A stretch of DNA of 64,000 nt from Isoperla grammatica. Lineage: Eukaryota > Arthropoda > Insecta > Plecoptera > Perlodidae. Below the pieces are notes generated by a model. The model worked only from the letters and a program-made list of their open reading frames with translations. It ran no database searches and had not been told where the DNA came from. Of this stretch, positions 35,801-41,800 are shown in pieces. A program made the position numbers and the translations under genes. Location: contig OX246745.1 of assembly GCA_945910005.1 (NCBI GenBank), forward strand, positions 42,356,278-42,420,277. Reading direction: 5' to 3'. The stretch's first letter is position 1, and every line of letters begins with the position of its first letter.

Positions 35801-38800
35801 GGATTGTTCAGAAAACAGCTGTAACAGATAACTAAAGTAGCTGACCTTGGACGTGATCTTGTAGACCGAGAAGGGCCTGATGAACCTCCTGTATCGTATC
35901 GTAGCCGCCCCCTGAACCACCGAGCCCCCCTTCTGGCGTATCTTCCTGTAGAGGCCGGAGCGCTCGTAGAAGTCGACGCGAGCAAAGTCCAACTCCCTCA
36001 GGTAGCGGGCGTTGTTCATGTGGTACAGTAGCGTGTCTATGTCGGTCAGGATGCACACCCCTGTAACACCCGTAGCTGGTTAGGACACCCAGCATTATAT
36101 AGCATGTGGACAGTAGCGTGTCTATGTCGGTCAGGATGCACACCCCTGTAACACCCGTAGCTGGTTAGGACACCCAGCATTATATAGCATGTGGTACAGT
36201 AGCGTGTCTATGTCGGTCAGGATGCACACCCCTGTAACACCCGTAGCTGGTTAGGACACCCAGCATTATATAGCATGTGGTACAGTAGCGTGTCTATGTC
36301 GGTCAGGATGCACACCCCTGTAACACCCGTAGCTGGTTAGGACACCCAGCATTATATAGCATGTGGTACAGTAGCGTGTCTATGTCGGTCAGGATGCACA
36401 CCCCTGTAACACCCGTAGCTGGTTAGGACACCCAGCATTATATAGCATGTGGTACAGTAGCGTGTCTATGTCGGTCAGGATGCACACCCCTGTAACACCC
36501 GTAGCTGGTTAGGACACCCAGCATTATATAGCATGTGGTACAGTAGCGTGTCTATGTCGGTCAGGATGCACACCCCTGTAACACCCGTAGCTGGTTAGGA
36601 CACCCAGCATTATATAGCATGTGGTACAGTAGCGTGTCTATGTCGGTCAGGATGCACACCCCTGTAACACCCGTAGCTGGTTAGGACACCCAGCATTATA
36701 TAGCATGTGGTACAGTAGCGTGTCTATGTCGGTCAGGATGCACACCCCTGTAACACCCGTAGCTGGTTAGGACACCCAGCATTATATAGCATGTGGTACA
36801 GTAGCGTGTCTATGTCGGTCAGGATGCACACCCCTGTAACACCCGTAGCTGGTTAGGACACCCAGCATTATATAGCATGTGGTACAGTAGCGTGTCTATG
36901 TCGGTCAGGATGCACACCCCTGTAACACCCGTAGCTGGTTAGGACACCCAGCATTATATAGCATGTGGTACAGTAGCGTGTCTATGTCGGTCAGGATGCA
37001 CACCCCTGTAACACCCGTAGCTGGTTAGGACACCCAGCATTATATAGCATGTGGTACAGTAGCGTGTCTATGTCGGTCAGGATGCACACCCCTGTAACAC
37101 CCGTAGCTGGTTAGGACACCCAGCATTATATAGCATGTGGTACAGTAGCGTGTCTATGTCGGTCAGGATGCACACCCCTGTAACACCCGTAGCTGGTTAG
37201 GACACCCAGCATTATATAGCATGTGGTACAGTAGCGTGTCTATGTCGGTCAGGATGCACACCCCTGTAACACCCGTAGCTGGTTAGGACACCCAGCATTA
37301 TATAGCATGTGGTACAGTAGCGTGTCTATGTCGGTCAGGATGCACACCCCTGTAACACCCGTAGCTGGTTAGGACACCCAGCATTATATAGCATGTGGTA
37401 CAGTAGCGTGTCTATGTCGGTCAGGATGCACACCCCTGTAACACCCGTAGCTGGTTAGGACACCCAGCATTATATAGCATGTGGTACAGTAGCGTGTCTA
37501 TGTCGGTCAGGATGCACACCCCTGTAACACCCGTAGCTGGTTAGGACACCCAGCATTATATAGCATGTGGTACAGTAGCGTGTCTATGTCGGTCAGGATG
37601 CACACCCCTGTAACACCCGTAGCTGGTTAGGACACCCAGCATTATATAGCATGTGGTACAGTAGCGTGTCTATGTCGGTCAGGATGCACACCCCTGTAAC
37701 ACCCGTAGCTGGTTAGGACACCCAGCATTATATAGCATGTGGTACAGTAGCGTGTCTATGTCGGTCAGGATGCACACCCCTGTAACACCCGTAGCTGGTT
37801 AGGACACCCAGCATTATATAGCATGTGGTACAGTAGCGTGTCTATGTCGGTCAGGATGCACACCCCTGTAACACCCGTAGCTGGTTAGGACACCCAGCAT
37901 TATATAGCATGTGGTACAGTAGCGTGTCTATGTCGGTCAGGATGCACACCCCTGTAACACCCACAGCTGGTTAGGACACCCAGCATTATATAGCATGTGG
38001 TACAGTAGCGTGTCTATGTCGGTCAGGATGCACACCCCTGTAACACCCGTAGCTGGTTAGGACACCCAGCATTATATAGCATGTGGTACAGTAGCGGTGT
38101 CTATGTCGGTCAGGATGCACACCCCTGTAACACCCGTAGCTGGTTAGGACACCCAGCATTATATAGCATGTGGTACAGTAGCGTGTCTATGTCGGTCAGG
38201 ATGCACACCCCTGTAACACCCGTAGCTGGTTAGGACACCCAGCATTATATAGCATGTGGTACAGTAGCGTGTCTATGTCGGTCAGGATGCACACCCCTGT
38301 AACACCCACAGCTGGTTAGGACACCCAGCATTATATAGCATGTGGTACAGTAGCGTGTCTATGTCGGTCAGGATGCACACCCCTGTAACACCCGTAGCTG
38401 GTTAGGACACCCAGCATTATATAGCATGTGGTACAGTAGCGTGTCTATGTCGGTCAGGATGCACACCCCTGTAACACCCGTAGCTGGTTAGGGTACCCAG
38501 CATTATATAGCATGTGGTACAGTAGCGTGTCTATGTCGGTCAGGGTGCACACCCCTGTAACACCCGTAGCTGGTTAGGACACCCAGCATTATATAGCATG
38601 TGGTACAGTAGCGTGTCTATGTCGGTCAGGATGCACACCCCTGTAACACCCACAGCTGGTTAGGACACCCAGCATTATATAGCATGTGGTACAGTAGCGT
38701 GTCTATGTCGGTCAGGATGCACACCCCTGTAACACCCGTAGCTGGTTAGGACACCCAGCATTATATAGCATGTGGTACAGTAGCGTGTCTATGTCGGTCA

Positions 38801-41800
38801 GGATGCACACCCCTGTAACACCCACAGCTGGTTAGGACACCCAGCATTATATAGCATGTGGTACAGTAGCGTGTCTATGTCGGTCAGGATGCACACCCCT
38901 GTAACACCCGTAGCTGGTTAGGACACCCAGCATTATATAGCATGTGGTACAGTAGCGTGTCTATGTCGGTCAGGGTGCACACCCCTGTAACACCCGTAGC
39001 TGGTTAGGACACCCAGCATTATATAGCATGTGGTACAGTAGCGTGTCTATGTCGGTCAGGATGCACACCCCTGTAACACCCGTAGCTGGTTAGGACACCC
39101 AGCATTATATAGCATGTGGTACAGTAGCGTGTCTATGTCGGTCAGGATGCACACCCCTGTAACACCCGTAGCTGGTTAGGACACCCAGCATTATATAGCA
39201 TGTGGTACAGTAGCGTGTCTATGTCGGTCAGGATGCACACCCCTGTAACACCCGTAGCTGGTTAGGACACCCAGCATTATATAGCATGTGGTACAGTAGC
39301 GTGTCTATGTCGGTCAGGATGCACACCCCTGTAACACCCGTAGCTGGTTAGGACACCCAGCATTATATAGCATGTGGTACAGTAGCGTGTCTATGTCGGT
39401 CAGGATGCACACCCCTGTAACACCCGTAGCTGGTTAGGACACCCAGCATTATATAGCATGTGGTACAGTAGCGTGTCTATGTCGGTCAGGATGCACACCC
39501 CTGTAACACCCGTAGCTGGTTAGGACACCCAGCATTATATAGCATGTGGTACAGTAGCGTGTCTATGTCGGTCAGGATGCACACCCCTGTAACACCCGTA
39601 GCTGGTTAGGACACCCAGCATTATATAGCATGTGGTACAGTAGCGTGTCTATGTCGGTCAGGATGCACACCCCTGTAACACCCACAGCTGGTTAGGACAC
39701 CCAGCATTATATAGCATGTGGTACAGTAGCGTGTCTATGTCGGTCAGGATGCACACCCCTGTAACACCCGTAGCTGGTTAGGACACCCAGCATTATATAG
39801 CATGTGGTACAGTAGCGTGTCTATGTCGGTCAGGATGCACACCCCTGTAACACCCGTAGCTGGTTAGGACACCCAGCATTATATAGCATGTGGTACAGTA
39901 GCGTGTCTATGTCGGTCAGGATGCACACCCCTGTAACACCCGTAGCTGGTTAGGACACCCAGCATTATATAGCATGTGGTACAGTAGCGTGTCTATGTCG
40001 GTCAGGATGCACACCCCTGTAACACCCGTAGCTGGTTAGGACACCCAGCATTATATAGCATGTGGTACAGTAGCGTGTCTATGTCGGTCAGGATGCACAC
40101 CCCTGTAACACCCGTAGCTGGTTAGGACACCCAGCATTATATAGCATGTGGTACAGTAGCGTGTCTATGTCGGTCAGGGTGCACACCCCTGTAACACCCA
40201 CAGCTGGTTAGGACACCCAGCATTATATATATATATTCGCCTTGTGACTGAGGAATAACTCGGAAAACCTTTGAGTCAGGATTTGTTGTGGCTGATATCG
40301 AACCTTCGACCTCCCGAATTTGTCTCGCGTGTTATCGGTCTCTCACAGCAAGAAGTGAGATAGTATCAGGACCACCCACATTTAGTTTGCAACTTAACAA
40401 GCGCGAATCACTGACGTTTTTACCGATTATCTAGTCAAATTTGGTTGCGGTAAGTTTCGGGACGGAAATGCACAAGAAAACGTGCAAGCAGGTTTCCGTA
40501 AAAAAACTTAACGCCACCAAATTGTACTAGATAATCGGGAAACTAAGTGTGGGCGGTCCTGATACTATCTTACTTCTTGGTGTGAGGGACCTAGACCGGG
40601 GCCACTGGCTCTGGAGCAAGTCTAGGAGAGATGGAGTTACGTAGCGGCCAGTGTAAACATGACTGTGTGTGTGTAATTGCCCCAAGGATAGCCACTGTCT
40701 TGTCTTGCAGCTATCAGCGCAAAGAGAACAGATCTACTTTACTCATTATGGAAATGTATTTCAAGTACAATTTACTGAAAACGCATTTCTATACTCAAGG
40801 TGAATGGCTGGCGATTGGAATCTATGTCTCGGGTGCAGATCAGATTTACCTGGTGTGACTATGTTACCCAGAAGTGTATTCCTAACATGTCTGCAAGGAA
40901 CACGCTGCTTCAGTGTACTCTTTAGCAATTGAACATCCCCCAGTCCTCCACCCCCCGGCGACCAATATTTCTGATCGAAGTTATAGCTACAGTAACTGAT
41001 GCCATATGCTCATGTTAGTATTTTTATTGATATTATTTTATGCTTCATTATCAATTTTATCTCTTGCACGATTTGAGTATTCATTCTTCCCCATATACTT
41101 TTACCGTGAATGTAATTAATGCATTAAACCACATTTTAATACGGGCCAGAAAAAAGTTGAACAATTTATTAATTTATTAAGAAACTGCTGTGTCATAAAC
41201 GAAGACTCGAGCAGGACCCAAGACCGACGCTCGTGTCCCTGTGTTAGGCGATATCAGGGTAGGGACACACCGCGTCCCCTCGTGTCCCCTCGTGTCCCCA
41301 CGTGTCCCCTTGCGTCCCCTCGTGTCCCCTCGTGTCCCCTCGTGTCCCTGTGTTAGGCGATATCAGGGTAGGGACACAGCGCGTCCCCTCGTGTCCCCAC
41401 GTGTTCCCTCGTGTCCCTGTGATAGGCGATATCAGAGTAGAGACACAGCGCGTCCCCTCGTGTCCCCACGTGTCCCTGTGTTAGGCGATATCAGGGTAGG
41501 GACACAGCGCGTCCCCTCGTGTCCCCTCGTGTCCCTGTGTTAGGCGATATCAGGGTAGGGACACAGCGCGTCCCCTCGTGTCCCTGTGTTAGGCGATATC
41601 AGGGTAGGGACACACCGCGTCCCCTCGTGTCCCCTCGTGTCCCCACGTGTCCCCTCGCGTCCCCTCGTGTCCCCTCGTGTCCCCTCGTGTCCCTGTGTTA
41701 GGCGATATCAGGGTAGGGACACAGCGCGTCCCCTCGTGTCCCCACGTGTTCCCTCGTGTCCCTGTGATAGGCGATATCAGAGTAGAGACACAGCGCGTCC

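Follow-up and report, generated by a model that had tools for sequence, protein, structure and literature searches.

The closest described systems are the 'mirages' of amphioxus, minisatellite-like repeats in which the repeat unit spans an intron/exon boundary and which are described in PMC3087553 for the globin genes BflGb6 and BflGb9. In BflGb6, the 3' end of an intron and the start of exon 2 are duplicated in 6 and 3 copies of 150–160 bp with 81–100% identity, and the edge unit differs from those of the interior; the same paper reports that the amphioxus mirages do not interfere with regular splicing. Further mirages are described or cited in PMC3087553 and PMC3902484: Adh3, with units of 10–72 bp, PGBD5, where 60- and 108-bp repeats lie at the splice sites, and TnC, cited in PMC3902484. 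The minisatellite of the human gene IFI6 (6-16) is reported to give several splice donors (Turri 1995), and a paper citing that work states that its repeat units are used as donors. Tandem genomic duplication has been invoked for intron gain, as in the Rogers model (cited in PMC3087553) and in a case from potato (PMC4974935).

We analyzed a window of 64,000 nucleotides of contig OX246745.1 from the insect Isoperla grammatica, which holds a THEM6-like gene on the minus strand. The gene has three coding exons, the phases of which join without a gap, introns with GT/AG ends, and an intact product of 202 amino acids. Coding exon 1 (154 nt, positions 55200–55353) ends in phase 1 with the donor ACG/GTAAAT (exon/intron), coding exon 2 (215 nt, 35846–36060) carries the donor AAG/GTCAGC, and coding exon 3 (17597–17836) begins in phase 0 after the acceptor TTATTTCTAG and closes with the stop codon TGA. 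A tblastn search with a human THEM6 sequence as the query returned three pieces on the minus strand; the exon 1 match is weak (E 0.044), and this exon was placed with the help of its sequence, the gene model, and an alignment with insect THEM6 N-termini. The 4HBT_2 domain (PF13279) is matched by exon 2 with an E value of 5.2e-16 and by the whole 202-residue protein with an E value of 1.9e-26. A protein search yielded 419 proteins, and among the best 120 of these 419 the nearest is THEM6 of Anabrus simplex (81% over 89%); the next named relatives among the matches listed are from a grasshopper, a stick insect, and other insects, and the insect THEM6 proteins listed cover up to 100% of the query. 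These relatives indicate that the source is probably a polyneopteran insect. The domain and the similarity to insect THEM6 over the whole protein thus support the THEM6-like assignment made in a preliminary description of this DNA.

Intron 1 (about 19 kb, 36061–55199, minus strand) contains several tandem arrays, one of which reaches its 3' end and continues into exon 2. Tandem Repeats Finder assigns to this array a period of 86 bp, 49.0 copies, and 99% matches over positions 36017–40229; the period and the copy number of the preliminary description stand, and its end at 40226 is corrected to 40229. When the array is split, 49 head-to-tail units are obtained, 38 of them identical and 11 variant. 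On the sense strand, each unit consists of 42 nt of intron end followed by the first 44 nt of exon 2. In unit 1, the exonic part lies at 36017–36060 and the end of intron 1, with the acceptor taken as authentic (TCCTAACC...GTGTTACAG), at 36061–36102; exon 2 runs on unbroken past unit 1, so that the authentic boundary forms one edge of the array. Unit anatomy and gene model therefore agree with what had been proposed: a unit of 42 intronic and 44 exonic nucleotides, an array that abuts the true exon, and the intron 1/exon 2 boundary as the founder of repeats that lie in the intron and run into the exon.

Unit 2 has 85 bp, as a result of a 1-nt deletion, and unit 25 has 87 bp, as a result of a 1-nt insertion; a dinucleotide change at sense positions 30–31 is found in units 23, 27, 31, 33, 43, and 49, a T to C change at position 52 in units 30, 35, and 49, and a dinucleotide change at positions 17–18 in unit 29. 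The terminal unit 49 (40145–40229, minus strand), which comes first in the transcript, carries several variants, including both common ones, and has a TATATA flank beyond it. The array gives way to TATATATATTCG at this far edge, where unit 49 has a T instead of the G with which the other units end on the plus strand; original intron sequence at the far edge would be expected to leave such a difference. The exon-side edge unit, unit 1, is identical to the consensus, and a less homogenized edge is thus seen at the far edge only. One variant falls within the exon-side units 1–22 versus 10 within units 23–49 (Fisher p 0.013, with the split at 22 picked after looking), which may reflect more recent growth on the exon side. 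When the unit was compared with the whole 874-Mb assembly, 49 matches were reported, all within the array and hence at one locus, and no match was reported outside it by this search, which scores the best candidates only and skips very common words; none of the 16-mers of the unit occurs elsewhere in the window. Because the reported assembly matches all fall in the array and the 16-mers are absent from the rest of the window, chance is excluded as an explanation of the repeated boundary sequence.

The locus thus shares with the amphioxus mirages, as these are presented in PMC3087553, a unit that spans the boundary, an authentic boundary and exon at the edge of the array, and splice signals kept in many copies; its interior is homogenized, and like BflGb6 it has a less homogenized edge unit, here at the far edge. 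Unlike BflGb6, which belongs to a cephalochordate and has 6 and 3 copies of 150–160 bp, it is found in an insect and comprises 49 copies of 86 bp, 38 of them identical. It is therefore a mirage-type array, with about eight times the copies of BflGb6, and extends the phenomenon from amphioxus to an insect, where an independent origin is likely. The view that no satellite with this property had been described does not hold, since BflGb6 has the same anatomy; the literature searched, from which most subscription papers were missing, yielded no insect mirage and none of such size. The IFI6 minisatellite likewise lies at a coding gene's splice site but is reported to supply donors, whereas the copies here carry acceptor sites. 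As in the accounts of intron gain by tandem duplication, the duplicated segment includes splice signals; here, the repeats lie inside an existing intron and a new intron is not evident.

Clusters of tandem alternative exons of the Dscam type also place dozens of tandem acceptors in one gene. The THEM6-like array resembles them in this respect, but its units are partial exons without alternative coding content and without a good donor: in a simple frequency matrix the donors of the gene itself score 3.19 and 2.77, and the best donor-like site within the unit 0.66. A Dscam-type cluster, in which each unit needs its own donor, was therefore rejected, and introns within the array or recursive splicing are not supported for the same reason.

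On the sense strand, the 42-nt intron end carries a branch-like motif, TCCTAAC, followed by GTGTTACAG, after which the 44 nt of exon 2 begin. The acceptor GTGTTACAG/G (intron/exon) and CCTAAC are kept in all 49 units, as had been claimed for every copy. The tract between the branch-like motif and the AG is poor in pyrimidines (50% versus 81% at exon 3). Because the tract is poor and all 49 units retain a perfect AG and the branch-like motif, nothing in its sequence favors the authentic site over the copies. The locus is in this sense a natural test of how the spliceosome chooses one 3' splice site when dozens of near-identical ones are set apart by position alone. RNA structure hiding the copies was considered and rejected, as exon 2 with its two nearest units folds no more stably than shuffled sequences (z 1.39; 91 of 100 shuffled versions were as stable or more so).

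The acceptor in use can be approached through the protein. The 44-nt exon piece encodes 15 residues, of which eight (G52, the codon of which intron 1 interrupts, C54, D58, D60, L62, L63, H65, and M66) are invariant in an alignment of 25 insect rows, made up of this protein and 24 relatives from among the 120 listed. Since these residues are encoded within the piece, the exon must begin at or before it and unit 1 supplies the acceptor; this conservation makes the exon-side acceptor very likely the authentic one. Another AG lies in frame 15 nt upstream in unit 1, where the frame is open and five residues could be added; it adjoins the branch-like A, and the five-residue insertion is seen in none of the 24 aligned relatives. 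Residue 56 (36047–36049, within the duplicated piece) is Leu in this protein and Thr or Ser in all 24 relatives, and no copy differs at this codon among the 49 units. In the Timema gene model P0025, the residues that precede G52 appear, at the protein level, to resemble a translated intron end.

The consequences of using each acceptor were predicted with a splicing model in which acceptor k is taken and everything is kept as far as the exon 2 donor. With k = 1, the 202-residue protein is obtained, and this is the sole one of the 49 choices that gives the full protein. With k = 2, the frame shifts and ends in exon 3; with k = 3 to 49, translation would stop at codon 69 or codon 85, and the last junction lies 285 nt or more beyond the stop. 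Of the 48 other copies, 47 thus lead to a premature stop and one to a frameshift. A stop well before the last junction is, by the usual rule, a target of nonsense-mediated decay, and the 47 early-stop transcripts would be such targets in this model. Exon 2 measures 215 nt with the first acceptor, 300 nt with the second, 386 nt with the third, and 4343 nt with the forty-ninth. Under the principle of exon definition the nearest acceptor is favored, and it should therefore be favored here, as exon 2 would lengthen from 215 to 4343 nt with farther acceptors. The copies, although nearly equivalent in sequence, are not equivalent in position.

We consider it most probable (roughly 80%) that a splice boundary became, by chance, the founder of this mirage-type array, that the gene works from the copy attached to the exon, and that the farther acceptors are unproductive. 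In this insect, whose genome is rich in arrays, a local tandem duplication would have copied an 86-bp segment straddling the intron 1/exon 2 boundary of the THEM6-like gene, and unequal exchange or slippage may then have expanded it to 49 copies inside intron 1, presumably without any selected function. The gene would still work through the copy that is joined to the complete exon 2: this acceptor lies closest to the exon 2 donor (215 nt away), it alone gives the full protein in the splicing model, and exon definition would favor it through pairing with that donor. The use of a farther acceptor would lengthen the transcript by 85 nt or more, shift the frame, and bring an early stop, and such transcripts would be mostly degraded or yield no enzyme. 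Against this reading count the splice signals that the copies share with the authentic site, the in-frame AG upstream in unit 1, the lack of a second splice-boundary array in the small sample described below, copies 2 and 3, for which the splicing model still gives exons within the normal size range, 300 and 386 nt, and the Leu at residue 56, which looks odd for a strictly kept coding sequence; this change was possibly fixed together with the array.

An unlikely alternative would make the array a regulatory decoy, in which the 48 extra acceptors divert part of the nascent transcripts to decay, in the manner of an unproductive-splicing switch, and the copy number sets THEM6 output. The AG and the branch-like motif are indeed kept in all 48 extra copies, the distal copies are transcribed ahead of the exon-side one, and the 47 predicted early stops and the single frameshift would serve such a role. 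However, the copies are nearly identical anyway, which is why their signals are intact, so that selection on the signals is not seen, and PMC3087553 reports amphioxus mirages without interference in regular splicing. Were it nevertheless a splicing rheostat tunable by copy number, with 48 working decoys transcribed first, the loss of THEM6 transcripts to premature stops would follow array length, and this length would vary between individuals, perhaps between cells; we regard such a rheostat as doubtful.

That the 49 acceptors compete as equivalents and make a mixture of isoforms as a rule is very improbable: the units are nearly identical in sequence, but unit 1 alone borders exon 2, and any other choice disrupts the frame in the splicing model. 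It is equally improbable that a short array or a single duplication was inflated by the assembler. Near-identical repeats are hard to assemble, and haplotype 1 of BflGb6 appeared aberrantly assembled in the amphioxus draft, according to PMC3087553; against this, the array contains no N, the sole gap of the window being 200 N at 59456–59655, upstream of exon 1, the interior variants of units 23–43 lie at distinct positions, and arrays of similar period are frequent on the contig. The copy number itself could be off.

The preferred reading, a boundary array founded by chance, was set against the arrays in a sample of twenty 10-kb stretches of the same contig (C2). Tandem repeats make up 22% of the sample, and 15% with a period of 30 or more; the 22% mean is raised because three of the twenty stretches (L012, L024, and L028, 91–100% tandem repeat) consist almost wholly of repeats. 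The sample holds 23 distinct long-period arrays, among which periods similar to 86 bp are frequent, and scaling up gives about 100,000 arrays genome-wide. By a rough count that assumes 100,000–160,000 splice junctions and that the one-contig sample is typical, random founders are expected to place some 500–1,800 arrays across splice boundaries. As random founders would give many such arrays, the THEM6-like one needs no special cause, and their scarcity or abundance relative to the 500–1,800 expected would measure selection against them. A second splice-boundary array was not seen among the 23 long-period arrays sampled, where 1–2% are expected and which are too small a sample to test the estimate.

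Open frames at 69 array edges, the window included, number 72, with 41 from the sampled stretches and 31 from the window. A Pfam scan covered the 37 distinct frames from the sampled stretches and in 36 of these 37 found no clear host exon at the array edge: these frames have no match, retroelement-like domains (L025), weak matches below the cut-off (L019), or matches to repeats (L027). The remaining one, L010:7811-8899, is an APEX2-like last exon that encodes the end of the AP endonuclease domain and a GRF zinc finger and matches solved AP endonucleases. At L010:7701-7866 (minus strand), its final codons with the stop and the first part of the 3' UTR are duplicated as an exact 82-bp tandem pair, one of the 23 long-period arrays of the sample; the second copy lies within the 3' UTR, and a splice site is not included. 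Arrays in the Isoperla grammatica genome do arise, then, on coding exons.

Other repeats accompany the THEM6-like gene farther downstream. A 39-bp array (17896–18538), another one almost touching a splice site of this gene, lies upstream of the exon 3 acceptor and stops some 60 nt short of it, without including it. Intron 2 also holds two retroelement-like coding stretches arranged head to head (29941–35398), with reverse transcriptase, RNase H, and integrase on the minus strand and a zinc knuckle and an aspartyl protease on the plus strand, and a (CAACCATA)n array of about 4.5 kb (23111–27578), in which three minus-strand frames are open over about 1500 amino acids each because the 8-mer contains no stops.
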